31,002 bases of DNA from a virus: positions 1 to 31,002 of IMG/VR virus record IMGVR_UViG_3300049218_000123, one strand, 5' to 3'. Under the pieces are notes generated by a model, which searched no databases, had not been told where the DNA came from, and saw only the letters and a list, made by a program, of their open reading frames with translations. Position 1 is the stretch's first letter. Every line of letters begins with the position of its first letter. Shown piece after piece: positions 1,474 to 19,896 of the stretch. Position numbers and translations under genes: made by a program.

Positions 1474-1500
1474 GCCCCGGCTTCGGGCCGGGGCTTTTTT
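1474..1500 (+). terminator. Rho-independent terminator after the lysis genes
   Basis: GC-rich stem GCCCCGGC paired with GCCGGGGC (1474-1481 with 1487-1494) around a short TTCGG loop, then six T. It insulates the lysis operon from the convergent CDPS gene, whose stop lies four bases further on. On the minus strand the stem is not followed by a T tract, so it is probably one-directional. Confidence 0.85.
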
Positions 1501-1503
1501 GCT

Positions 1504-2241
1504 TTATACGGGTTGCCTATCAGTGCGCGGCAATGCGCGCATTTCGTCCGCAAAGTGCGGAGCGCGTTCGATCCTGATTTCAACCCGGCGCTGCGTCTCG
1601 AGGCCACGCGGGGCGTTTGGCACACGACCGGACTTTATGACCCGGAAAACCTCCGGTGTCGTGCCGGGATATATCTTTGCCGCGCTTGGAAATTGCTTGT
1701 GCAAAAGCGTATGCGCCGCCAACTCTTCAAAAATAAAATGCCTATTGTTATCGGCCAGCTTAGCCAATAGCGGCTCCGGCCCGGCGGAAAGCTTGCGCAA
1801 CATAAAACGGGCCACGCCCATATTGACCGCCGTCGTAAAAACACCATCGCTGCCATACAATTGAATGAACGCATCCTCGGTCTTCTTAAACTTTGGATGC
1901 CCCAACCAGTGATTCCAGCGGATGATTTCAGGCGTGATCCTTAACCCTATGAGAACGGATGCGTTCTCGCCAAGCCATTCATCGCCAAGGGCGCGCGCTT
2001 GGCTCCCCGCATCAGGCAAAAGATCGCCATGCTCATCTGTCAAGTTCCATGCATAGAGCGAATCCGACAGGTCGATGACGCAACGGGTAAAATTCGGCTG
2101 GGCGTTGATCCAATCCACAATCGCGCGCAGCTTGTCGCCCTTCGTGCCATCGTTGCCAAGGCTGACGGCAATAATCGCCGTCGAGCAATTTTTCCAATCG
2201 GCATCCGAAGCGGCTTTAACGCGCACCCTATAATCAGTCAT
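1504..2241 (-). CDS. Probable tRNA-dependent cyclodipeptide synthase (CDPS)
   Basis: CDPSs make cyclic dipeptides (diketopiperazines) in the cytoplasm from two aminoacyl-tRNAs, passing the first aminoacyl group to an active-site Ser. At 245 residues the protein has the family length. IIAVSLGN (residues 23-30) aligns with the ISxGN strand of AlbC and carries the nucleophile (Ser27) and the Asn equivalent to N40. Next comes the KLRAIVDWINAQ helix. Later, FIFEELA (169-175) aligns with YVLAEAP of AlbC, placing Glu173 at catalytic E182. KIYPG (Tyr191-Pro192) matches the Tyr202-Pro203 signature of the XYP subfamily. The position of Y178 is Phe169 in this by-eye alignment. The start codon overlaps the upstream XRE gene by 8 bases, so the two are translationally coupled. 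No tailoring enzyme (oxidase, P450, methyltransferase) is adjacent. The assignment rests on motif spacing, not a search. Confidence 0.75.
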   Translation of the reverse strand: MTDYRVRVKAASDADWKNCSTAIIAVSLGNDGTKGDKLRAIVDWINAQPNFTRCVIDLSDSLYAWNLTDEHGDLLPDAGSQARALGDEWLGENASVLIGLRITPEIIRWNHWLGHPKFKKTEDAFIQLYGSDGVFTTAVNMGVARFMLRKLSAGPEPLLAKLADNNRHFIFEELAAHTLLHKQFPSAAKIYPGTTPEVFRVIKSGRVPNAPRGLETQRRVEIRIERAPHFADEMRALPRTDRQPV

Positions 2242-2893
2242 ATGTTTTTTCCGCTATATTTTCTGTTGGCATTTTATGAGTTTCCCACAAGCGTTCGAAA
2301 ATACAGCGCATCGTCTGCGCGTTGGAGGCGCTGCGCGTGAGGTGACAGGTTTTTGCCGTGGGATCGCCGGACGGGTCGGCGATCATGATGCCTACTTTAT
2401 CGGCATAAATCAGGATCGAATTATTTTCAAAAGCGTGCGGTGGGATGCAGCGATACTCTACTAAAGGATAGAGGCAATAGGGATTCGCCTCACTGATCAG
2501 AGAGCGAAATTTGATCCCGTCATGGCGCATGCGCAGGTCGCTTTCGATCACCGCGTGGCTGCTCTTGCTGTTATCGACGTACATGAATAATAGCTCGCCG
2601 CCAGTGCCCCGCAGGGTCGCATAAGCGTCATCGAGCAGCTGCAGGTAGGCATTGGGGGCGGACAGGATGCGCAGAACGTCTTGGCGCTTGCGGACGCCGC
2701 TGGTGCCGATGAATTCAATGCCGGCGGCCTCAAAAGCGGCTTTAATCGCCTCAAAACTAGAAACGCGACCGTGACTGATTTCCTGTTCTATCCCTTGCAG
2801 CGTATTTTTGCTGATGCCGCTTTGTTTTGCCAGCTGGCCGAGGTTCCAGTTCAGCATGGCGCGGGCGGCGCGGATTTGCTCGGCAGTAATCAT
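2234..2893 (-). CDS. XRE-family regulator with a TrmB-like C-terminal domain
   Basis: 219 residues. Residues 1 to about 60 (ITAEQIRAARAMLNWNLGQL, then AKQSGISKNTLQGIEQ) form an XRE/Cro-type helix-turn-helix. The remaining 140 residues resemble the C-terminal, PLD-like sensor domain found in TrmB-type regulators: a basic helix DLRMRHDGIKFRSLI, then LVEYRCIPPHAF, a central ILIYADKVGIMIAD strand pair, and a terminal FERLWE helix. Such domains bind small ligands in known TrmB proteins; whether this one does is inference. It is the first gene of a two-gene operon with the CDPS and overlaps it by 8 bases. That suggests the regulator controls, or responds to, the synthase product. It is distinct from the CI-like repressor at 10613-11017. 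Confidence 0.7.
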   Translation of the reverse strand: MITAEQIRAARAMLNWNLGQLAKQSGISKNTLQGIEQEISHGRVSSFEAIKAAFEAAGIEFIGTSGVRKRQDVLRILSAPNAYLQLLDDAYATLRGTGGELLFMYVDNSKSSHAVIESDLRMRHDGIKFRSLISEANPYCLYPLVEYRCIPPHAFENNSILIYADKVGIMIADPSGDPTAKTCHLTRSASNAQTMRCIFERLWETHKMPTENIAEKTYD

Positions 2894-3018
2894 GTCCCGA
2901 GCTTAGCTGGAATATAATCACAAATAAACCTGAAAATTATCACCGTTAACCGTACCTATGAAGGCGTTGTTAATACTTTTCGCCTAAAAACGCATCTTCG
3001 CTCACCAACGGAGGCATT
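2894..3018. promoter_or_regulatory. Divergent promoter region between the XRE-CDPS operon and the 3019 gene
   Basis: AT-rich intergenic stretch between divergently transcribed genes. On the minus strand a TATATT at 2916-2911 is a plausible -10 for the XRE gene, with no good -35. The 11-mer TGGAATATAAT at 2908-2918 also occurs, in inverse orientation, at the cI/cro promoter (11088-11098). An AGGCG...CGCCT inverted repeat flanks an AT-rich centre near 2963-2987. The rightward gene has a strong ribosome site, ACGGAGG, at 3008-3014. Confidence 0.4.
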
Positions 3019-3171
3019 ATGCGTCATAACGATATCAACTTCGAGACTCTTGCACAACGTTATGGCGAACCGATTGCAGCTTTCGTCTTTAAGGAGATTG
3101 AGAAAGCCGAGCGCCTGAGCGCCAAGCTGATTCGCCCCAGCGGGGCCCGCGCAACCTCTTACAGCGCGTGA
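3019..3171 (+). CDS. Small hypothetical protein (50 aa)
   Basis: ATG preceded by a perfect ACGGAGG with optimal spacing, which supports a real gene despite its size. It encodes a charged, helical protein beginning MRHNDINFETLAQRYGEPIA. I do not recognise it. It is divergent from the XRE-CDPS operon and followed at once by another small gene, so the pair may be expressed together. Position between lysis genes and attP suggests an accessory or lysogenic gene. Confidence 0.6.
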   Translation: MRHNDINFETLAQRYGEPIAAFVFKEIEKAERLSAKLIRPSGARATSYSA

Positions 3172-3182
3172 GGGGCAGACCA

Positions 3183-3506
3183 ATGGATCAGCTGGATATC
3201 AATTTCAAAGTAAGCCGCTCAGCCCTCATTCGTGAAATTCTGGCGCGGCCTGGCAGGGCGATTGTCAGACTCGGCAATGTTCGCATGATCGGCACCGGTT
3301 ATGAGCCGCTGACCCAAAGCGAATTGCACGCCCTGATCACCGTCTCGCAGTATGTGGCTGCGAATGAAAACCTGCGCCCCGAAACCTTAGAGCAGGTAGT
3401 CGCGGCAGAGTTCAGGACGACCTCATTCGCTAACATTAATCGAGAGCAGTTTGCCGGTGCTGTCGCGTTCATGATCGAGCTGACGAAGGAGGAGGATGGG
3501 GATTGA
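3183..3506 (+). CDS. Hypothetical protein (107 aa) next to attP
   Basis: ATG 3183 is chosen for the AGGGG a few bases upstream; a GTG at 3168, overlapping the previous stop as GTGA, is the alternative and would add five residues. The product is a mixed alpha/beta, soluble protein (MDQLDINFKVSRSALIREIL at the start, FMIELTKEEDGD at the end). No family is recognised. It shares the DINF tetrapeptide with its upstream neighbour near the N-terminus, perhaps by chance. It is the last gene before the attachment site. Confidence 0.6.
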   Translation: MDQLDINFKVSRSALIREILARPGRAIVRLGNVRMIGTGYEPLTQSELHALITVSQYVAANENLRPETLEQVVAAEFRTTSFANINREQFAGAVAFMIELTKEEDGD

Positions 3507-3539
3507 TTTTATACTTTTCTCTTTTGTTCAAATGAACCC

Positions 3540-3596
3540 TTTTGCAAGAACGCAAACAGAACTGAAGCCATTTAGACACGGCTGAGCGTTTTGCAA
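3540..3596. repeat. Direct repeats TTTTGCAA, possible integrase arm sites
   Basis: The octamer TTTTGCAA occurs at 3540-3547 and 3589-3596, 49 bases apart, and the att core begins 47 bases after the second copy. Arm-type integrase sites often appear as short spaced repeats on one side of the core. This is only suggestive: two copies of an 8-mer in AT-rich DNA may be coincidence. Confidence 0.25.
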
Positions 3597-3635
3597 ATTG
3601 GCTATACTAAGCTATATTTGCGCCCTACCACGTCT

Positions 3636-3680
3636 TTCCTAATCCTGGGGTCGTGGGTTCAAATCCCGCCGGAAACGCCA
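3636..3680 (+). other. attP core: 3' half of a tRNA-Arg(CCT) gene
   Basis: The sequence reads as an anticodon loop TTCCTAA (anticodon CCT), anticodon-stem 3' arm TCCTG, variable loop, T-arm GTGGG-TTCAAAT-CCCGC, acceptor 3' strand and CCA. The 5' flank (CACGTC) cannot pair with the anticodon-stem 3' arm, and no D-arm or acceptor 5' strand precedes it, so this is not a functional tRNA gene. A tyrosine integrase ends two bases further on. Together this is the layout of a phage attachment core that restores the host tRNA 3' end on integration. Confidence 0.85.
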
Positions 3681-3681
3681 A

Positions 3682-4722
3682 TTATTTCATACGTTTATTT
3701 AACTTTTTATCCTTTTCTTTTGGGTTCCGTTGTACTCGATTTAGGTTAAGATGCAACGCTGCGGAGGCGCTTTTCAGATATTCAGGGCTGAACCTCGCAT
3801 AAACCGATTCCGTGATGCGCGTGCTGGAATGGCCGAGGTACTGACTGATTTCGGTCATCGGCACGCCGGCCTCAGCCATCCAGACAGCTGCCGTATGGCG
3901 CAGGACGTGCGGCGTTACCGTCGCCTTTCCTTTTTGGTCGACGAGACCCGCCGCCACTACGGCGGCATGGAAGCCTTTCTTGATAGAAATGATCTTCCGG
4001 CCGCCATGCTCGATGACAAAATCCGAGACCCTGGCTTCATGCAGCTCCTCTAATATCATTCGGGCGTCATCGGACATGGGAAGGATCGCGCGGCCCTTGT
4101 TGCCGGTTGAGCGACCGAGATTGATGATGCCCTTGTTGAAGTCGATATGCTTCCACGTCAGATCGAGGATGGCGGCGCTCCGCGCCCCCGTCGTGAGGGC
4201 GAGAACGATGAACCCCCGGACATGACGAACCTGCGCCGCCTCGATGAGCTGCTGCGCCTCATCGCGGGATAGAGAACGAAGCCGAGGGGGCGCTGCCGGC
4301 GGGAACTCAAATTGCGCCGGATGGCGTTTGTCGATCCAGTTCAGCGCGGCGCGCACGATGGTCAGGCGCTTTCTGATCGTCGCATTGGACAGCTTCTTTT
4401 TTTGCTCTTTAGCGATGTAGCTGCGGCACCAATAGCGGTCGATCTGATCGGGCCGCAAATGTCCTATGTCCGGCTGTATGGCGTTCCAGGCGTATTGTGC
4501 GTCCTTATGCGATGCCATAGCAGTCTTGTCGGCTAAATACTTCTCGACAATGCCATCGATCGTGTCTGCCTCTTTACCGGCGATCAACCTTTTAACATCT
4601 AGGATCGCGCGTTCGGCATCGTTGCGGCTTTTGACAGTTTTAGAGTCGAGAACGCGGCGCTTCGAGCGACCGTCCTCTCGCCAGTACGCATACCACTTTC
4701 CTCTGAATTTGACGGCTCGCAC
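3682..4722 (-). CDS. int: Tyrosine-type integrase
   Basis: Site-specific recombinase that would integrate and excise the phage at the tRNA-Arg(CCT) gene. All catalytic residues are visible: Arg181 in TTGARSAAILDLTW, His272 and Arg275 in PHVLRHT, His298 in YLGHSST and the nucleophile Tyr308 in ESVYARF. The N-terminal part holds an arm/core-binding SAM-like domain (about 55-135). A lysine-rich tail follows the tyrosine. The start is a GTG inside the excisionase-like frame, with AGGGAG upstream; no earlier in-frame start is possible because of a TGA. It is the last gene of the leftward operon and ends at the att core. Confidence 0.95.
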   Translation of the reverse strand: MRAVKFRGKWYAYWREDGRSKRRVLDSKTVKSRNDAERAILDVKRLIAGKEADTIDGIVEKYLADKTAMASHKDAQYAWNAIQPDIGHLRPDQIDRYWCRSYIAKEQKKKLSNATIRKRLTIVRAALNWIDKRHPAQFEFPPAAPPRLRSLSRDEAQQLIEAAQVRHVRGFIVLALTTGARSAAILDLTWKHIDFNKGIINLGRSTGNKGRAILPMSDDARMILEELHEARVSDFVIEHGGRKIISIKKGFHAAVVAAGLVDQKGKATVTPHVLRHTAAVWMAEAGVPMTEISQYLGHSSTRITESVYARFSPEYLKSASAALHLNLNRVQRNPKEKDKKLNKRMK

Positions 4723-4916
4723 GGTATACTCCCTTCATGTGCGGCCACCTCAGCCGCTCTTATTCGCCATAAACTTCCAAGCTTGAAGCCCTTTAACTCG
4801 CCGCGCGCGATCATGTCCCGGACGTGCTGATCAGAGCATCCCCACCGTTGGGCGAGCGACCTTGGCGTGAACGGGCACCCATTGTTCAATGGCGGTAATT
4901 CGATGATGTCTGTCAT
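4599..4916 (-). CDS. xis: Excisionase-like helix-turn-helix protein
   Basis: 105 residues. The first 60 hold a MerR/HTH_17-type winged helix (PFTPRSLAQRWGCSDQHVRD, then GELKGFKLGSLWRI), the domain used by phage excisionases to bind and bend att DNA. It starts on an ATGA overlap with the upstream gene and extends 124 bases into the integrase frame. The last 40 residues, in the overlap, are Ser/Arg-rich and look unstructured. The position just before int is the usual one for xis. The functional name is inferred from domain plus neighbour. Confidence 0.75.
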   Translation of the reverse strand: MTDIIELPPLNNGCPFTPRSLAQRWGCSDQHVRDMIARGELKGFKLGSLWRIRAAEVAAHEGSIPCEPSNSEESGMRTGERTVARSAAFSTLKLSKAATMPNARS

Positions 4917-5512
4917 CCCAATTCCTTCCTCGCCTCGTCGCGTGCAGTGTTAAGCGCCACAATGTCTTCATGTCCTCCACCTGTGTCTGTATGAAAACGT
5001 TTGGCTAGCAGCCGATAAGCTTCATCAACGTCAGTACTGTTACGGATGACATAGCCCCATTCAGAAAACCGCGTGCGCCAGCTTTTATTTGCTTCCGGCG
5101 CCGGCAAGGAAGTGAAGCCTGAAAAAGCCGCTTCCACCATGCTGCCGGTACCCCAACGTTCTACACCGCGCAGCGCGTCAATTGTTTTAGCAATTGCGTG
5201 TATATTATCGGCAATGCGATCCCAGCGATCGCAAGCGAAGGCCATTTGATGCAGCTTACCGTTCTTTCGAACCGTAAAATAAACCGCAGCACCCTGATCG
5301 CTTGGCTGACGCTGATTTGAATAAGGAAGACCATCCTTTCTCAATTCAAGATCTGTCGATATCACCGCGTTTGATCCGCCGATCAATCTTACCTCGTTCA
5401 AGACAGACTCAACGGCACGCCCGAGTGGCGTGTCAAAGCGAGCGCGTTTACGCTGATATGAAGGTGTGCGCGGACGCCCTTGCGGCCAGTGTAAAGGGAA
5501 CGATTGCGTCAC
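4913..5512 (-). CDS. Phage protein with a degenerate J-domain at the C-terminus
   Basis: 199 residues, starting at a GTG that overlaps the stop of an 18-codon ORF (GTGA). Residues 162-198 (DEAYRLLAKRFHTDTGGGHE, then an asparagine-containing helix) match a DnaJ J-domain in which the HPD tripeptide is HTD at 174-176. The asparagine-containing last helix matches LNxAxxEA of J-domains. The N-terminal 160 residues are not recognised. J-like proteins are frequent in phage early operons near recombination genes, where a role in remodelling replication complexes is supposed. The stop overlaps the xis start. Confidence 0.6.
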   Translation of the reverse strand: MTQSFPLHWPQGRPRTPSYQRKRARFDTPLGRAVESVLNEVRLIGGSNAVISTDLELRKDGLPYSNQRQPSDQGAAVYFTVRKNGKLHQMAFACDRWDRIADNIHAIAKTIDALRGVERWGTGSMVEAAFSGFTSLPAPEANKSWRTRFSEWGYVIRNSTDVDEAYRLLAKRFHTDTGGGHEDIVALNTARDEARKELG

Positions 5513-5565
5513 GCCGCCACCTCATCCGGTTTAAAAACTAGCTTTTCCGTCTCGATCGCCTGCAT
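5509..5565 (-). CDS. 18-residue coupling ORF
   Basis: A short frame MQAIETEKLVFKPDEVAA with one of the best ribosome sites of the operon (AGGAGAGAGGGAG upstream of the ATG) ends in a GTGA overlap with the start of the J-domain gene. It bridges the gap between the helicase stop (5588) and that weak GTG start. It may be a translated leader that delivers ribosomes to the next gene, or a genuine micropeptide. Confidence 0.45.
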   Translation of the reverse strand: MQAIETEKLVFKPDEVAA

Positions 5566-5587
5566 TCGATCTCCCTCTCTCCTGTGA

Positions 5588-6451
5588 TCATTGGTACAAA
5601 GTTAGCCTTTCAGCCGCGCGCGTGATTGCGGTATAAGCCCAGCGCCTACCGTCTTCCCTGAAAACGGATGATTCGTTGAAAATCACGATATCATCCCATT
5701 GTGAACCCTGCGCCTTATGGCAGGTCAGCACATAGCCGTAGGTAAATTCCTGCGTACCTTTTTTCTCTGTCCAGGGCAGATCGGCATCGCCGCCGGTAAA
5801 GAATTCCTGCCGCACCTGGACTTTGCGCGTATCGGCTTTTTCATCCTCTAAAGATTTAATCCGCATTTTAATGCGCGGCGCAATTTTGCACGAACCATAA
5901 TCACCATAATCGAGGCTTTCGCCGGCGCGTACCCGCATCGAGAGAGCAATGATCGGGTTGTCTTTGGCCTGCCGGTGCACCTCGGTCAGCATATAGTTAG
6001 GGTTGCCGACCGTGAAAAAGCCCGCGCCTTTGACCGGTGGGAGCTGTGCCGGATCGCCCAGAACCAGAATTTTCGTGCCGAAGCTAAGCAGATCCTTGCC
6101 GATTATCTCATCGACCATCGAACACTCATCGATGATGATAAGCTTTGCGTCCTTAACCTTGCTATCAGGATCCAGCTTGAACGTCGGCTGCAGGTCTCGG
6201 CGTTCCTCGATCATATAGATCATCGAGTGAATCGTGCTGGCATCCTCACAACCCTTGCGGCGCAGCACCGATGCCGCCTTTCCCGTGAAAGCGCCGAACA
6301 GCACGGTGCCCTTGACCTTCTCCGCGATTGCTTTGGCGAGCGTGGTTTTACCCGTGCCAGCGAAGCCGAAAAGCTTGAAAACGGGCTCGTTGGTCTTGAG
6401 CCAGTTTCCCACCTCGGCCAAGGCGACTTCCTGTTGGCTACTCCACGCCAT
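5588..6451 (-). CDS. RecD/Dda-like ATP-dependent DNA helicase, internally shortened
   Basis: Superfamily 1B helicase of the phage RecD-like type. Walker A GFAGTGKT is at residues 29-36, Walker B LIIIDEC at 105-111, motif III GDPAQLPPV at 132-140 and the HRQ arginine motif at 159-161. Motif V CHKAQGSQWDD is at 244-254 and motif VI TAITRAAERL at 274-283. Relatives have about 80-100 further residues between the HRQ region and the RIKSL segment, including the NxTR and GD(R/K)LVCLRN parts of domain 2A. Here GDYGSCKIAPR (183-193) joins RIKSLEDEK directly. The protein may thus be an in-frame deletion derivative. It starts on a TAATG overlap with a mini-ORF, downstream of recT, in a recombination/replication operon. 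Confidence 0.85.
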   Translation of the reverse strand: MAWSSQQEVALAEVGNWLKTNEPVFKLFGFAGTGKTTLAKAIAEKVKGTVLFGAFTGKAASVLRRKGCEDASTIHSMIYMIEERRDLQPTFKLDPDSKVKDAKLIIIDECSMVDEIIGKDLLSFGTKILVLGDPAQLPPVKGAGFFTVGNPNYMLTEVHRQAKDNPIIALSMRVRAGESLDYGDYGSCKIAPRIKMRIKSLEDEKADTRKVQVRQEFFTGGDADLPWTEKKGTQEFTYGYVLTCHKAQGSQWDDIVIFNESSVFREDGRRWAYTAITRAAERLTLYQ

Positions 6452-6507
6452 TAGCCAGCGCCACCCAAAAGTGCCGTTGCCACCTCGCGCACGTTGCGGC
6501 TACCCAT
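6451..6507 (-). CDS. 18-residue ORF bridging recT and the helicase
   Basis: The frame MGSRNVREVATALLGGAG starts at a TGATG overlap with the recT stop and ends at a TAATG overlap with the helicase start. It fills the gap exactly, so ribosomes could pass from recT to the helicase by termination-reinitiation. It has the same length (19 codons with stop) as the mini-ORF at 5509-5565. A conserved small protein is also possible. Confidence 0.45.
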   Translation of the reverse strand: MGSRNVREVATALLGGAG

Positions 6508-7532
6508 CAGTACATGCTCCCTTGCTCGGGAGCGGTCTTGTCCGCCGCTGGCGCGCTGGCCTTAGCTTCTGTGCGCACCGGGCGGTGCGCCTCGGTCGTG
6601 TCCCATTCCAGGCCCTCGCGATCGGAGGCCGTCAGCTGTTCAAGATTCTGGCTTTCCATAAAGCCGCTAACGGCTGGGCCACCATTGCGCGCCGCCGCAG
6701 CATGCTCTTTCCGGAAGTCCTTGATAAAATCCTCGTAAAGCTCGTAACCAAGTTCTTCTCCCTCGAGCGTGATGAGGAAAAACTTAGCCTCGCCAAGGCC
6801 AGTTTCGGACAGATCTCTTGTCTCAGTTGTAGCTACTACCGAACTAGAAACCGACAATTCCGGCCTTGCCTCAGTAGCAATATAATCACTGCGCCGCGGA
6901 CGGGGGGTGACATCTGTTGCCCTTTCAGCTGCGATGCGCTCTAAGTCATCTTCAGTTAATACCCCCAGCACGACTTCCGGGCACCAGCGACGGGCCCACT
7001 TTATCGATCCTGAATAGACCAATTTTTGATCTGGGTCTTTTGTCCACATGAAATTATCGGTCTTGGCGTCTTTAAGCACCAATTCCATTACTTTTGGTTC
7101 TGCTTCCCCCTTGAATGTCGCGGACACGATCACCTTTCGGTTATCACCGGAACCCTCAAATTTGTAATCAAGGCGCGCGCTAAGTCCTGCCCTAGCGTTC
7201 ACAACGGCCGCAACAAGTTTGCCTGAATAACCAAGCTTTCCGCCAACTTCATAGGTCTCTGGCGCAATGGCGAAAGGGTCCATATTCCAGCGAACGGCCT
7301 GATTGACCACAAGAAAACAGTTTCCGACAGTCTGCGCGTGAACGCGGCTAGGGTCATTGTCTTTTCCCTTTAGATGCTTTGGAATGAGCGATGCCGATGC
7401 CATGGCCGATGCAATGCGCTGCATGTGCTCAAAGCGCGCTGTATCCAGCAAATAAGATACCGCGCTGTTATCTTCAACAACGCGGACTTCTCTAGAGTTT
7501 GCTCGGGCAGGCATTGGTGATATTGCGTTCAT
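6507..7532 (-). CDS. recT: RecT-family single-strand annealing protein
   Basis: 341 residues. The RecT core is clear: NCFLVVNQAVRWNMDPFAIA, then KLGYSGKLVAAVVNARAGL, then WTKDPDQKLVYSGSIKWARR followed by WCPEVVLGVL (roughly residues 70-205). RecT proteins coat resected ssDNA and promote annealing and strand invasion in phage recombination. The C-terminal third is low-complexity, with Ser/Thr and Ala/Pro stretches, and may bind partners. A RecT normally works with a 5'-3' exonuclease (RecE or YqaJ type). None is evident in the neighbouring genes. Confidence 0.9.
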   Translation of the reverse strand: MNAISPMPARANSREVRVVEDNSAVSYLLDTARFEHMQRIASAMASASLIPKHLKGKDNDPSRVHAQTVGNCFLVVNQAVRWNMDPFAIAPETYEVGGKLGYSGKLVAAVVNARAGLSARLDYKFEGSGDNRKVIVSATFKGEAEPKVMELVLKDAKTDNFMWTKDPDQKLVYSGSIKWARRWCPEVVLGVLTEDDLERIAAERATDVTPRPRRSDYIATEARPELSVSSSVVATTETRDLSETGLGEAKFFLITLEGEELGYELYEDFIKDFRKEHAAAARNGGPAVSGFMESQNLEQLTASDREGLEWDTTEAHRPVRTEAKASAPAADKTAPEQGSMY

Positions 7533-7543
7533 GATCTTTCCTT

Positions 7544-8272
7544 TCAGCGGATAACGGTTTTGACGGTTTCGAAAATCTTGAGGCCCGGGATCTCGCGCAC
7601 ACCGGCCTTGAGCGCGGCTTTGACCGCGTCAGGGTTTAGCATCAGGTATTCGCGCGGCACCAAGGCGAGATCGACAAGCTCGTGCGACCATACGGTCCTG
7701 GCGGATGCTAGGGCGCCGGTATCAGTTCTGGTCCGCACCGGCTCGATCGGCGCCGCAGCGGCAGCTACCTTGCCGAGCGCCGCGACGGTCTGTTCCTCCG
7801 TCTTGGCCTCCTGGACAGCCTTGCGCGCTTCTTCTTCGGCTTTCGCCTTGCGCTCGCGTTCGTCTTTCAGCTTTTTCTGCTGGTAGGCGCCGAGCTTCTT
7901 GCGCACCGAGGTATCTGACGCGACCAGGATGGCGGTTTCGCCTTTGAAAAAGCCGTCAACCTTGCGGCCAGCGTCGAGAAAAGGCTTTTTCTCAGCTTCG
8001 CGCTTTTTCTCGAACGCGCCAAGCAACTCGCCTAATTTCTTTAGATAATTAGTAGCGGCTTCGGACTGATCATCATTATCGATTGTCGGGCGCTCTTTTT
8101 CCCAGCGTTCGGCAATCTTGATATATTTATCATCGCGGGTTGCGATGAGGTCGGCCACGCCCTCGCGCAACCGCTCGATCAGCGGGTCAACATCGGCAGG
8201 CGGATTGTTATGCCCGATCCCGGCGCGGGCGTTCACGAAATCATCCACAAACGTATCTTCTTCAACAGTCAT
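7544..8272 (-). CDS. Coiled-coil phage protein upstream of recT
   Basis: 242 residues. An N-terminal GIGHNNPP motif, often seen in alphaproteobacterial phage early proteins, is followed by a long charged coiled coil (about 45-165, including KKLKDERERKAKAEEEARKA). The C-terminal domain contains LVDLALVPREYLMLNPDAVK and GVREIPGLKIFE. I recognise that C-terminal pattern from proteins encoded beside RecT-type recombinases but know no biochemical function. The start overlaps the upstream stop (TGATG), and recT follows 11 bases after its stop. It may be an accessory recombination factor. Confidence 0.65.
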   Translation of the reverse strand: MTVEEDTFVDDFVNARAGIGHNNPPADVDPLIERLREGVADLIATRDDKYIKIAERWEKERPTIDNDDQSEAATNYLKKLGELLGAFEKKREAEKKPFLDAGRKVDGFFKGETAILVASDTSVRKKLGAYQQKKLKDERERKAKAEEEARKAVQEAKTEEQTVAALGKVAAAAAPIEPVRTRTDTGALASARTVWSHELVDLALVPREYLMLNPDAVKAALKAGVREIPGLKIFETVKTVIR

Positions 8273-8604
8273 CAGAACATCCTCGCTTCAGATTCGGAAA
8301 GTGGACGGCGCGGGTTTGCGGCGGGTTCGTCAGGCGAATACTGACAGCACCATTCGGCATGCCGGATCATGTAGTCGAACTCTGACTTGTCGATCACGCG
8401 CCATGGCCAGCCGGGCGGCATGTTCGGATCGACGCGCTCGCCGTTCACCTCGGCGAAATATTTTACATCGTCCTGCAGTTCGCCGGTTTCAGGATCGCGA
8501 TCCTCAACCGTCCACATGCGGCACGGCACGAACGGGCCACCCTTGACCAGGCGCGTCTTGAAATAGCCCGGCGAGGCGTCGAGCGGATCTGCGGGAACGC
8601 TCAT
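8272..8604 (-). CDS. Hypothetical early protein (110 aa)
   Basis: Soluble, acidic protein with many Pro, Trp and Cys residues (GGPFVPCRMWTVEDRDPETG; HAEWCCQYSPDEPA). It looks like a conserved phage early protein but I cannot name a family. Start and stop both overlap neighbouring genes by a few bases, so it is an integral cistron of the leftward operon. Confidence 0.65.
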   Translation of the reverse strand: MSVPADPLDASPGYFKTRLVKGGPFVPCRMWTVEDRDPETGELQDDVKYFAEVNGERVDPNMPPGWPWRVIDKSEFDYMIRHAEWCCQYSPDEPAANPRRPLSESEARMF

Positions 8605-10612: not shown

Positions 10613-11017
10613 CTAGCCGTTATTGCGCTCATTCATCACAAAGCGCAAGCATCGCCTATACATCTCGGTTATGCCCAGTTCATCTAAGGTTGCGCCGATT
10701 TTATGCGCACGAAGCAATTTAAAAATATCAGCTGCTACCTCGTCATCCGTTTTTGCGGCAAGACTATTTTCTGCGCCCGTTATCTTGATCTCAGAAAAAT
10801 CCTGTAGTTTTTCACCAAGTCCATCGCGTAACCACAAAAAATTGACCTCCATAGCATCAGCAAGTTTAGGAATGATAAGGCCACGCGGTTGATCTACTTC
10901 ACCGCGAAAGTATTTTTGCACGCTTTCTTTTGACACACCAGATCGCCGCGCTAATTCAGGCGCACTCCAGCCAAGTTCTCTTGCCCTTTCAACGAGCCTA
11001 TCAGTCCAATGCTTCAT
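10613..11017 (-). CDS. CI-like phage repressor (XRE family)
   Basis: N-terminal helix-turn-helix: RLVERARELGWSAPELARRS and GVSKESVQKYFRGEVDQPRG match the repressor-type XRE fold. The C-terminal region (SLAAKTDDEVAADIFKLLRA and on) shows no S24/LexA-type peptidase motif, and the protein is short (134 residues from this start). Starts at 11071 or 11089 would add 18 or 24 residues. I prefer 11017 because the fold begins there and 11089 lies within the operator, upstream of the likely transcript start. On the minus strand a perfect TATAAT (11093-11088) could drive it. It is divergent from the Cro-like gene and followed by a lipoprotein. Confidence 0.8.
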   Translation of the reverse strand: MKHWTDRLVERARELGWSAPELARRSGVSKESVQKYFRGEVDQPRGLIIPKLADAMEVNFLWLRDGLGEKLQDFSEIKITGAENSLAAKTDDEVAADIFKLLRAHKIGATLDELGITEMYRRCLRFVMNERNNG

Positions 11018-11052
11018 GCGTCGAGTATGAACGCGACGAGAAATAATTTCCG

Positions 11053-11099
11053 TTGAATTATTTTCTTGCATAGTGGAATTTAATTCCATTATATTCCAC
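11053..11099. promoter_or_regulatory. cI/cro divergent promoter-operator
   Basis: Palindrome TGGAATT-T-AATTCCA at 11074-11088 plus half-site ATTCCAC at 11093-11099 form almost the same 26-27-base arrangement as at 10115-10140. On the plus strand TTGCAT (11066-11071) and TATATT (11090-11095) are a plausible promoter for the Cro-like gene, with the palindrome filling the spacer. The overlapping minus-strand TATAAT (11093-11088) could serve cI. The rightward transcript would begin at or next to the ATG at 11104, so the Cro-like message is probably leaderless. Confidence 0.7.
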
Positions 11100-11103
11100 G
11101 CCC

Positions 11104-11361
11104 ATGACCTACGTAGACACTGTCATCGACAAATTGGGCGGTCCTGATGTAACCGCAAGCAAGACCGGCGTTGGCTATTCAGCCATACGGAAATGGTCAA
11201 AAAACGGCATCCCGCCAAAATACTGGCCCCTGATCGTCTCCTGCACCGACGAGACTTTCTCAGCTCTTGAGCAGGCATACGCCGCACTCAACCCTGGCGC
11301 GATTTATCTGCCGACGGCCCGACGCAAGAAAAGCGCCTCTTCCCGGAAGCCACGGGCATGA
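11104..11361 (+). CDS. Cro/YdaS-like repressor
   Basis: 85 residues. DKLGGPDVTASKTGVGYSAI, then RKWSKNGIPPKYWPLIV, is the helix-turn-helix pattern of the YdaS/Cro-like family that faces CI genes in many prophages. It would bind the shared operators and favour lytic growth. The C-terminal tail is basic (ARRKKSASSRKPRA). No Shine-Dalgarno sequence is present upstream of the ATG, in keeping with a leaderless transcript. It heads the rightward early operon. Confidence 0.8.
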   Translation: MTYVDTVIDKLGGPDVTASKTGVGYSAIRKWSKNGIPPKYWPLIVSCTDETFSALEQAYAALNPGAIYLPTARRKKSASSRKPRA

Positions 11362-14631: not shown

Positions 14632-15345
14632 ATGACCATGTTTCAAATCAAAAACCGCTACAATGGCGCGGTACAATTCGAGTGTGAGCTTTCGGCTGAA
14701 GTTAGCTCGGAGCACGTCGACATACAGCTTGGCTTTGCGATCAAGGCCGCGATCAAGGCAAATGCCAACCTGACCCGTGCCAACCTGATCCGTGCCAACC
14801 TGACCGGTGCCAACCTGATCCGTGCCAACCTGACCGGTGCCGACCTGACCGGTGCCAACCTGATCCGTGCCAACCTGACCCGTGCCGACCTGACCCTTGC
14901 CGACCTGCGCGATGCCAACCTGACCCTTGCCAACCTGCGCGGTGCCGACCTGACCCTTGCCGACCTGCGCGATGCCAACCTTAATAGCTTTAAACAAGAC
15001 TTGATCGCCGAAGTGCTTCGCGTACCTGGCGAAATCGACGGGCTTCGCCAAGCTTTAGTAGAAGGCCGTATCGATGGTTCGACCTACAGCGGAGTTTGTG
15101 CTTGTTTAGCCGGTACCGTGGCAAATCTCAAAGGAATTGAAGATTACAACGGACAGACCATCGAAGCCGGCGAAAAAGTGAAATTTACCGCCGACAGCAC
15201 CTCACCGCGCGAGGTATGGTTCATGGGCATAAGCGAGGGAGATACGCCAGAGACCAATCGAATGGCGGCAATCGCGCTGGACTGGATCGACGAAGCTATC
15301 GCCATCCGCGACAATATCCGCGCGACTGTGAAGGTGCAGCAATGA
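14632..15345 (+). CDS. Pentapeptide-repeat protein
   Basis: 237 residues; GGAG precedes the ATG by seven bases. An N-terminal 40-residue cap is followed by 15 consecutive A(N/D)LxX repeats (about 45-119), which should form a short right-handed quadrilateral beta-helix. The C-terminal domain ([20 protein letters not shown], then CLAGTVAN; later [20 protein letters not shown]) is typical of a phage-borne version of this family. Some pentapeptide-repeat proteins (MfpA, Qnr) mimic DNA and bind gyrase, but this repeat block is short and no such role is shown here. Its place in the early operon suggests interference with a host process; function unknown. Confidence 0.85.
14764..14988 (+). repeat. 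15-bp tandem repeats encoding the pentapeptide block
   Basis: About fifteen 15-base units of the type GCCAACCTGACCCGT follow one another. Many are identical at the DNA level apart from one or two bases (CGT/GGT/CTT; AAC/GAC). Such DNA-level identity suggests recent expansion by slippage or unequal recombination rather than selection on protein alone. Confidence 0.85.
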
Positions 15346-18232: not shown

Positions 18233-18563
18233 CCTGCGCAAGAAAGACAAAGCCTTCGATGCGGCCTGTAATGAGGCCATTGAGAGCGCTGTGGATGCAC
18301 TTGAACAGGTCGCCTGGGACCGCGTCATGCAAGGCGATGAAGAATTTGTCGTTAGCCAAGGTCGCATCGTTAACGGGCCCGACAAAGAGCCACTCAAAGT
18401 ACGGAAACGGTCCGACCTTCTGACAATTACCCTTCTGAAGGCGCATCGCGCTGACAAATACCGCGATCGCCAAACTATAACGCACGAAGGCGGAATCGAC
18501 ACAACCGGCGCCAAGGACAAGCTTAGAAACCGGCTTGCAAAGCATGCCGGTGGAAGAAAATAA
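18117..18563 (+). CDS. Terminase small subunit-like protein
   Basis: 148 residues. The N-terminal region (FLRISPNITLAAKAAGIGRQ, then HSYDLRKKDKAFDAACNEAI) is a helix-turn-helix of the kind that recognises pac/cos DNA in small terminases. It is followed by a helical oligomerisation region, VDALEQVAWDRVMQG, and SDLLTITLLKAHRADKYRDR, which is common in this group. The gene directly precedes and overlaps the large terminase. Small subunits form rings that guide the motor to phage DNA. Confidence 0.8.
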   Translation: MPQQTLAKQKATFVKFLRISPNITLAAKAAGIGRQHSYDLRKKDKAFDAACNEAIESAVDALEQVAWDRVMQGDEEFVVSQGRIVNGPDKEPLKVRKRSDLLTITLLKAHRADKYRDRQTITHEGGIDTTGAKDKLRNRLAKHAGGRK

Positions 18564-19896
18564 TTTATCGCTGGCAGCGCAACTCGCCGCACTTCCCGAA
18601 GACGAGCTCGAAGATTATCTAAGCAGCCTGACCGATGATGAGGCGGCGGCGCTAGAGTATGATTGGGAATTTCTGGCGCGTCCTAACCAGATCGCACCGG
18701 ACGGCGAGTGGTCTGGTTGGCTGGTGCTGGCGGGCCGCGGCTTCGGTAAGACCCGCACCGGCGCTGAATGGGTACGCCAGATCAAGGACACGATACCGCG
18801 CATCGGCATGATCGCGCCCACCGCCGCTGACGTGCGTGACGTTATGGTCGAGGGCGAATCCGGCATCATGGCGATATCGCCGCCGTGGGACAAACCGCTT
18901 TACGAGCCATCAAAACGACGCCTGACCTGGGATAACGGCGCGCAAGCCGCACTTTACAGCGCCGATGAACCGGAACGCCTGCGCGGACCTCAGCACGGTG
19001 CCTTGTGGGCCGATGAGATTGCCGCTTGGCGCTATCCCGAAACATGGGACATGGCGCAGATGGGCCTGCGCCTTGGCACACACCCGCGTTTCATCGTCAC
19101 CACAACGCCGAAACCGATCAAGATTGTGCGCGAGTTGCTGAGCGATCCGTCCGTGATCGTCACGCGTGGCACGACCTACGATAACCAAGCTAATCTGGCG
19201 CCGAGCTTCCTCTCAACCATAGTCAAAAAATACGAAGGAACACGCCTCGGTCGCCAGGAACTAAACGCGGAAGTTCTGGAAGATACGCCCGGCGCACTGT
19301 GGAACCGCACCCAGATCGACAAGCTGCGCGTCAATGTCATGCCGACAGATCTGGAGCGCATCGTCGTTTCCATCGATCCCGCCGTCACCAGCGGCGAGAA
19401 TGCCGATGAAACGGGCATTACCGCGCAAGGCATAAAAGGCGATCACGTATTCGTCCTCGACGATAAATCAGGACGTTACCAGCCTGATGAATGGGCGCGC
19501 AAAGCGATCGACCTTTATGATACGCTGAAAGCCGATGCGATTATCGCCGAGGCCAATAACGGCGGCGACATGGTCAAGCATACGATCCGTATCGTCGACC
19601 AGAACGTGCGCGTCATTCTTGTCCATGCCAGCCGCGGCAAGGTCACGCGCGCCGAGCCGATTTCAGCGCTTTATGAACAGGGTCGCGTGCATCACGTAGG
19701 CTCATTCCCGACGCTCGAAGACCAGATGTGCGGCTTTACCACGGATTTTGACCGCAAGCTGATGGGCTATTCGCCGGATCGCCTCGATGCGCTGGTCTGG
19801 GGCATCTCGCAGCTGATCCCCGCCGAATCCACGACCGGCATGCTCGAATACTTACGCGCCCAAGCGAGAAACCAGAAAGAGATACCAGAGAAATGA
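18544..19896 (+). CDS. terL: Terminase large subunit
   Basis: DNA-packaging motor with N-terminal ATPase and C-terminal nuclease. Walker A GRGFGKT lies at about residues 64-70, Walker B LWADEIAAW at about 153-161, and the coupling motif TTTPK follows. The RNase H-like nuclease domain shows SIDPAVTSG, AEANNGG and DRLDALVWG with the expected acidic residues. The type resembles the GTA/HK97-like terminases of alphaproteobacterial phages. ATG 18544 is used; a TTG at 18535 would add three residues. It overlaps the small subunit by 20 bases. Confidence 0.95.
   Translation: MPVEENNLSLAAQLAALPEDELEDYLSSLTDDEAAALEYDWEFLARPNQIAPDGEWSGWLVLAGRGFGKTRTGAEWVRQIKDTIPRIGMIAPTAADVRDVMVEGESGIMAISPPWDKPLYEPSKRRLTWDNGAQAALYSADEPERLRGPQHGALWADEIAAWRYPETWDMAQMGLRLGTHPRFIVTTTPKPIKIVRELLSDPSVIVTRGTTYDNQANLAPSFLSTIVKKYEGTRLGRQELNAEVLEDTPGALWNRTQIDKLRVNVMPTDLERIVVSIDPAVTSGENADETGITAQGIKGDHVFVLDDKSGRYQPDEWARKAIDLYDTLKADAIIAEANNGGDMVKHTIRIVDQNVRVILVHASRGKVTRAEPISALYEQGRVHHVGSFPTLEDQMCGFTTDFDRKLMGYSPDRLDALVWGISQLIPAESTTGMLEYLRAQARNQKEIPEK

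Follow-up and report, generated by a model that had tools for sequence, protein, structure and literature searches.

A cyclodipeptide synthase homologue and an XRE regulator in a temperate phage: candidate mobile copy of a chromosomal regulator-enzyme module

INTRODUCTION

Does a temperate phage carry a small-molecule synthase together with its own receptor? The question is raised by a gene pair in the window analyzed here, i.e., the whole stretch of 31,002 nucleotides of the IMG/VR virus record IMGVR_UViG_3300049218_000123. A first-pass annotation of this DNA had read positions 1504 to 2893 as a cyclodipeptide synthase (CDPS) gene in an operon with a ligand-sensor-type XRE regulator, and had suggested a communication or lysogen-state sensor, a metabolite cargo, or a defense that drains charged tRNA. 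If the sensor reading is true, the locus would be a phage-borne synthase/receptor pair based on tRNA-dependent chemistry. It would also expose a family of regulator-enzyme modules, one small genome having at least 27 of the regulators, in which each signal's chemistry is predicted by the enzyme. Pairs of receptor and ligand would become open to direct testing, and some orphan CDPSs would gain a candidate role in biology.

RESULTS

Organization of the locus

Both open reading frames were present as annotated, with 8 nt (2234 to 2241) in common. The pair is flanked by a lysozyme gene and overlapping small lysis-type ORFs on one side and by an integrase gene on the other, which agrees with the proposed position between lysis genes and attP. 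The following features were assigned:

216-1079: phage lysozyme (Pfam match)
1504-2241, minus strand: CDPS-family protein, 245 aa, ATG start; assigned by sequence and predicted fold, XYP-like
2234-2893, minus strand: XRE regulator, 219 aa, ATG start; helix-turn-helix (HTH) in residues 1-70, PLD/TrmB fold in residues 71-212
2894-3018, no strand: divergent intergenic region with a palindrome at 2942-2953 (ACCGTTAACCGT); proposed operator/promoter
3019-3171, plus strand: small ORF Y, 50 aa, with an "RYG" motif; weak similarity
3168-3506, plus strand: gene X, 112 aa (or ATG start at 3183); profile match
3653-3680, plus strand: attP-like core; match to a tRNA-Arg(CCT) 3' end with 2 mismatches
3682-4722: integrase (family matches)
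10613-11089, minus strand: HTH repressor-like gene
11104-11361, plus strand: small divergent ORF adjoining the repressor-like gene

The source record is an IMG/VR virus contig, and the carrier of the gene pair is a temperate phage. Its 28-nt attP-like core resembles the tRNA-Arg(CCT) 3' end from one genome of the alphaproteobacterial class; no complete tRNA gene was found in the whole record.

A profile built from chromosomal X genes only, with the window left out, recovered gene X at an E value of 3.3e-8 among 4191 ORFs. Its homologues are small divergent genes at chromosomal XRE and XRE-CDPS loci. At XRE loci in chromosomes, small divergent ORFs occupy the position of ORF Y, which gave a weak match (E 0.024 among 8376 ORFs). 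Since the divergent gene X belongs to the locus, the module spans about 1504 to 3506 and is wider than the first-pass annotation had drawn it.

The XRE gene was also considered as the phage's own immunity repressor; this assignment was set aside in view of the separate HTH repressor-like gene and its divergent ORF (10613 to 11361). Given the same repressor-like gene on the minus strand, control of lysis and lysogeny by the pair was likewise without support. Elsewhere in the window, a 15-nt tandem repeat (14718 to 15017) encodes pentapeptide (A[N/D]LTx) repeats within the ORF at 14632 to 15345.

The CDPS homologue

The profile search that had been recommended, against PF16715, came out negative: the 245-aa protein had no Pfam match at E<=1, this family included. 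The NCBIfam model TIGR04539 matched at E 6.7e-6 with 25.8 bits against a cutoff of 45 bits, so that the protein falls short of the curated sequence profile for CDPSs. Homology stands despite this score, because a phmmer search against PDB sequences retrieved Nbra-CDPS from Nocardia brasiliensis (E 2.4e-18), Fdum-CDPS from Fluoribacter (4e-8) and Rgry-CDPS from Rickettsiella (6e-5). Nine of the 15 members of alignment A4 match PF16715 at E<=0.01. The AF2 model (pLDDT 90) gave the same identity: all 47 PDB chains found by Foldseek at E<=1e-3 were CDPSs. Structural Z scores were 25.5 to 9j61, 24.7 to Nbra-CDPS and 17.0 to AlbC (4q24), the comparison that the first-pass annotation had asked for. 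Class-I TyrRS came after the CDPSs in this ranking, at Z of about 13, which places the predicted fold among the CDPSs, a fold with kinship to class-I aminoacyl-tRNA synthetases.

All residues of the motif set had been read correctly: S27-x-G29-N30, with S27 as the putative nucleophile, E173 and Y191-P192 are present. Ser27, Glu173 and Tyr191-Pro192 occupy AlbC positions 37, 182 and 202-203, i.e., the catalytic residues are in place, and N30 lies at position 40. The equivalent of the catalytic helper Tyr178, which is conserved well in CDPSs, not strictly, is Phe169. In AlbC, the exchange Y178F substantially impaired acyl-enzyme formation and activity (PMC5935735). Phe also occurs here in six other coupled copies, and several chromosomal partners with this Phe keep Ser and Glu. 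In addition, the Arg-His of the family (positions 64-65), in which the Arg is near-invariant, is Ala-Trp in the phage protein and the HEG and QRH motifs are lost, while Glu172-Glu173 is kept. The protein sits on a long branch and is only about 30% identical to its nearest relatives. Its activity is uncertain because the Tyr178 helper is replaced by Phe; from sequence and model, we regard the product as a CDPS homologue whose catalysis is predicted at most, with a likelihood lowered by Phe169.

Several relatives showed peculiarities of their own. Among coupled CDPSs, Cys replaces the Ser nucleophile (Ser37) at locus L172 (9390-10127) and Tyr202 at L170 (10607-11350). At L173 (8439-10319; G462:C66), the CDPS is fused to a C-terminal extension of ∼380 aa without a Pfam family. 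Similar small membrane-type ORFs lie immediately 3' of the CDPS at L168 (4305-4595) and L171 (1845-2129). The renieramycin plasmid p-ren of "Ca. Endohaliclona renieramycinifaciens" (L002, 3878-4690) carries a CDPS homologue annotated just as a hypothetical protein.

The XRE regulator and candidate operators

The 219-aa XRE protein matched HTH_3 at the Pfam cutoff, and its model had a pLDDT of 95. Residues 1-70 resemble C.Kpn2I, a restriction controller (Z 12.6). For residues 71-212, the predicted fold is the PLD fold also seen in NucT, Nuc, TrmBL2 and TrmB (Z 13.5 to 11.6); the earlier description of an XRE HTH with a "TrmB-like" C-terminal domain is thus borne out at the level of fold. The catalytic motif HxKxxxxD is absent from the phage XRE and was present in 2 of 141 relatives. 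An HTH joined to a PLD-like domain without the HKD motif is the composition of a PLD/TrmB-type sensor regulator. Since the motif is missing, a role of the domain in sensing or dimerization appears likelier than a nuclease function; the modeled PLD fold is in itself no proof of ligand sensing.

Upstream of the XRE genes, the inverted repeat TACC-N7-GGTA occurred exactly 25 times, at 20 of 142 loci, compared to 0.84 occurrences expected from base-composition shuffles (gaps of 6 and 7 were scanned); as the motif had been spotted in some of these sequences before counting, the enrichment is not independent. Allowing one mismatch, 16 successive pairs of sites were 21 bp apart, a spacing that had not been put in. 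The motif was found at six CDPS pairs. None was found in the window or at several other CDPS pairs, and the palindrome in the phage intergenic region differs from the chromosomal motif.

Occurrence in phages and bacteria

Among phages, no CDPS was found in INPHARED and no close relative of either protein in IMG/VR (single-protein patterns; alignments A1/A6). The open-access full-text literature in PMC yielded no phage CDPS, and two CDPS censuses (PMC5816076, PMC5767969) make no mention of phages or of such regulators. Both genes were missing from 43 terminase-related phage records, many of them fragments, and a phage-lineage system was rejected on these grounds.

In bacteria, a scan of genome contigs for CDPSs returned Nocardia, Actinomadura and Tatlockia only. 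Long matches to the XRE protein (covering residues 1-100 or beyond) came from essentially one genome, G417, among 398 Pseudomonadota genomes. The order of G417 was placed in the Alphaproteobacteria because the 16S sequence of one member is 88% identical to Azospirillum. Full-length XRE relatives occur in 32 of its 33 genomes, with up to 27 in one genome at E<=1e-10, and tandem arrangement is common. With a CDPS profile, 7 of the 33 genomes were found to hold 11 CDPSs in all, and nine of these CDPSs lie directly downstream of a same-strand XRE of the phage XRE's family. The 385 genomes of the class contributed 6 further coupled pairs, along with two unpaired CDPSs and several more at contig ends. 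Across the 9 + 6 coupled loci, the position of the CDPS start relative to the XRE end ranges from 52 nt before it to 19 nt after it, and the exact 8-nt overlap of the phage recurs at three chromosomal loci. Two CDPSs without an XRE (L175, L215) belong to a type other than the paired one; those of L174 and L209 are kin of the paired type, yet unpaired.

The expectation that the two genes are conserved together thus failed for the related phage records, many of them fragmentary, and held for bacterial chromosomes. Because the pair is absent from these records and strongly conserved in bacterial chromosomes, sequence comparison points to a moron with relatives in a family of chromosomal modules. 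A similar arrangement was found in two near-identical IMG/VR records (L277, L278), in which XRE2-X-X is divergent from XRE1 and an EgtD-like enzyme gene. This is the layout of the phage XRE-CDPS locus with a different enzyme, and neighboring genes gave family matches to phage-type ParB, primase and DNA methyltransferase.

The kinship of XRE and gene X suggests an alphaproteobacterial host. A search for attB in the 33 genomes of the order of G417 found none. The large terminase (18535-19896) has ∼50% identity to genes present once each in 29 of these 33 genomes; as these are probably gene-transfer-agent terminases, the matches were left out as host evidence.

Coinheritance and the wider XRE-PLD family

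For ten pairs, the identity matrix of the XREs was correlated with that of the CDPSs (Mantel r 0.72, p 5e-5), and the CDPS-paired XREs fell within one 26-leaf clade (support 0.97) in which 16 leaves are paired. Both results show the coinheritance expected of a receptor and synthase in LuxI/LuxR-like signaling.

The survey comprised 141 unique full-length XRE-PLD ORFs. A CDPS is the coupled partner of 15 of them and a further XRE that of 7, while 44 are coupled to some other single gene, in most cases one for a small-molecule enzyme. In the remainder, the neighbor is convergent or distant or the contig ends; about half of all XREs lack a coupled partner. The surveyed loci were drawn from the best XRE matches, and these tallies describe an uneven sample of genomes. 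Pfam families of 42 of the 44 non-CDPS partners included LPG_synthase_C (9) and EgtD-like Methyltransf_33 (8). Among 34 non-coupled neighbors, neither of these two families reached two members. Further partners were other methyltransferases, GNATs, 2-hydroxyacid dehydrogenases (2), aminotransferases (2), a D-glutamate cyclase-like protein, a PLP decarboxylase and a metallo-beta-lactamase; about ten had no family.

The XRE phylogeny follows partner type almost perfectly: 60 partnered leaves with 21 types required 21 changes (minimum, 20), compared to a mean of 41 and a lowest value of 35 for shuffled labels. Given this difference, every subfamily of XREs goes with a single type of enzyme. Modules of a regulator and a small-molecule enzyme apparently form a large, undescribed family in small-genome alphaproteobacteria. 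One array (L176, G474:C2:1-20000, positions 1492-8587) contains about nine XRE-PLD paralogues in tandem, distributed over both strands; most have no coupled enzyme, and the members are possible solo sensors.

DISCUSSION

The interpretation in the first-pass annotation was partly supported. Our leading reading, to which we give a little less than an even chance, is a self-regulating synthase/sensor module in a mobile copy, with the product of the paired CDPS as the signal. It builds on computed homologies, folds, gene order, coupling, the divergent gene in common, the clustering of paired XREs and the correlation with CDPS divergence, together with the enzyme-specific XRE subfamilies and the operator enrichment. 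The phage module would be a copy of an alphaproteobacterial one, in which gene X, and possibly Y, is divergent from an XRE-CDPS operon with translational coupling. XRE may act as a one-component regulator that uses its controller-type HTH to bind operators within the divergent promoter; in the chromosomal relatives these would be the tandem TACC-N7-GGTA sites spaced by 21 bp. Its PLD/TrmB-fold domain would sense a small molecule. The CDPS would take two aminoacyl groups off charged tRNAs and convert them to a cyclic dipeptide or a related amino acid derivative. This product would be the likely XRE ligand, so that synthase and receptor could provide a cell-to-cell or lysogen-state signal. Enzymatic activity, product identity, ligand binding, diffusion and the phage's gain are what we infer here.

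As a proposal from sequence comparison, the communication or sensor idea appears strengthened, because each XRE subfamily tracks one small-molecule enzyme. Against signaling stand Phe at the Tyr178 position, the loss of the family Arg and of HEG, the absence of the operator motif from the phage and from several CDPS pairs, and the lack of a coupled partner in about half of the XREs. No transporter or target genes were identified for the module.

A metabolite cargo, which we consider unlikely though with a real chance, would have the CDPS make a bioactive cyclodipeptide, such as an antibiotic, a metal-binding precursor or a host-interaction factor, in a dose set by XRE in response to another cue and with no self-sensing. 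CDPSs are mostly natural-product enzymes (PMC5816076). The partner enzymes of XRE paralogues modify amino acids, and operator sites are equally expected from simple autoregulation. However, no obvious tailoring enzymes adjoin the CDPS in the window or in most chromosomal pairs, and the match between XRE subfamily and enzyme is more easily explained if the sensor domain recognizes the substrate or product of the enzyme.

A toxin-antitoxin or abortive infection system is distinctly improbable. The CDPS would then drain or modify charged tRNA and stop growth or the phage, with XRE as antitoxin or repressor, and an HTH gene in first place that overlaps the gene of the effector is indeed the arrangement of type II operons. 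The moron position and the many paralogues, some near integrases, fit as well, and the LPG_synthase_C partners likewise belong to an aminoacyl-tRNA-using family. The partners are, however, aminotransferases, EgtD-like methyltransferases and hydroxyacid dehydrogenases rather than known toxin folds; an RNase toxin family was matched by 0 of 42 partners and PADLOC gave no match beyond the HTH. Many XRE copies are also unpaired, and the family carries a domain of the sensor type. Just as doubtful is a degenerate or chemically altered phage CDPS serving as co-regulator or decoy, for instance by aminoacyl-tRNA binding, hydrolysis or acyl transfer to another acceptor. The long branch, F169 and A64-W65 in place of Arg-His would fit such decay, as would the Cys exchanges at L170 and L172. 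Still, Ser27, Glu172-Glu173 and Tyr191-Pro192 are kept at ∼30% identity to the nearest relatives, and the six other coupled copies share the Phe.

The synthase/sensor reading could extend further. It is conceivable, if rather doubtful, that XRE-PLD proteins with clade-specific one-step enzymes constitute an undescribed multichannel signaling system of alphaproteobacteria, and that the phage copies (CDPS here; EgtD-like in the two IMG/VR records) serve to sense or address lysogens and hosts by means of signals derived from amino acids.

Parts of the module resemble known systems. The XYP-subfamily enzymes Nbra-, Rgry- and Fdum-CDPS share its fold, Ser nucleophile and Glu182 and Tyr202-Pro203 equivalents, and Nbra-CDPS is about 26-31% identical to the phage CDPS. 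In contrast to them, the phage protein has Phe at position 178 and Asn at 40, has lost QRH and HEG, is phage-borne and XRE-coupled, and is missed by the Pfam CDPS family. The controller (C) proteins of restriction-modification systems, represented by C.Kpn2I, have the HTH fold of the phage XRE over 70 residues, and tandem palindromic operator-like sites also occur at its chromosomal relatives. Unlike C proteins, XRE has an extra PLD-fold domain and is partnered by a small-molecule enzyme instead of a restriction enzyme. The archaeal regulators TrmB and TrmBL2 likewise combine an HTH with a PLD-like domain (Z 11.6-12.9, about 10% identity); their HTH is a winged helix, whereas the protein of bacterial/phage origin has an XRE-type HTH. 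With arbitrium (AimR-AimP), the locus shares the idea of a phage-borne regulator and a phage-made signal. AimP is a peptide with a different receptor family, whereas the XRE-CDPS pair has an enzyme and no link to a lysis-lysogeny switch. LuxI/LuxR provides the parallel of an adjacent putative synthase and receptor-regulator with many solo receptors, as in the XRE modules, but the protein families are unrelated and the XRE-CDPS signal is a proposed one. Phage-encoded LuxR receptors have been reported, and one uncharacterized member of the Myoviridae carries a LuxI-type ORF adjoining LuxR (PMC6456758).
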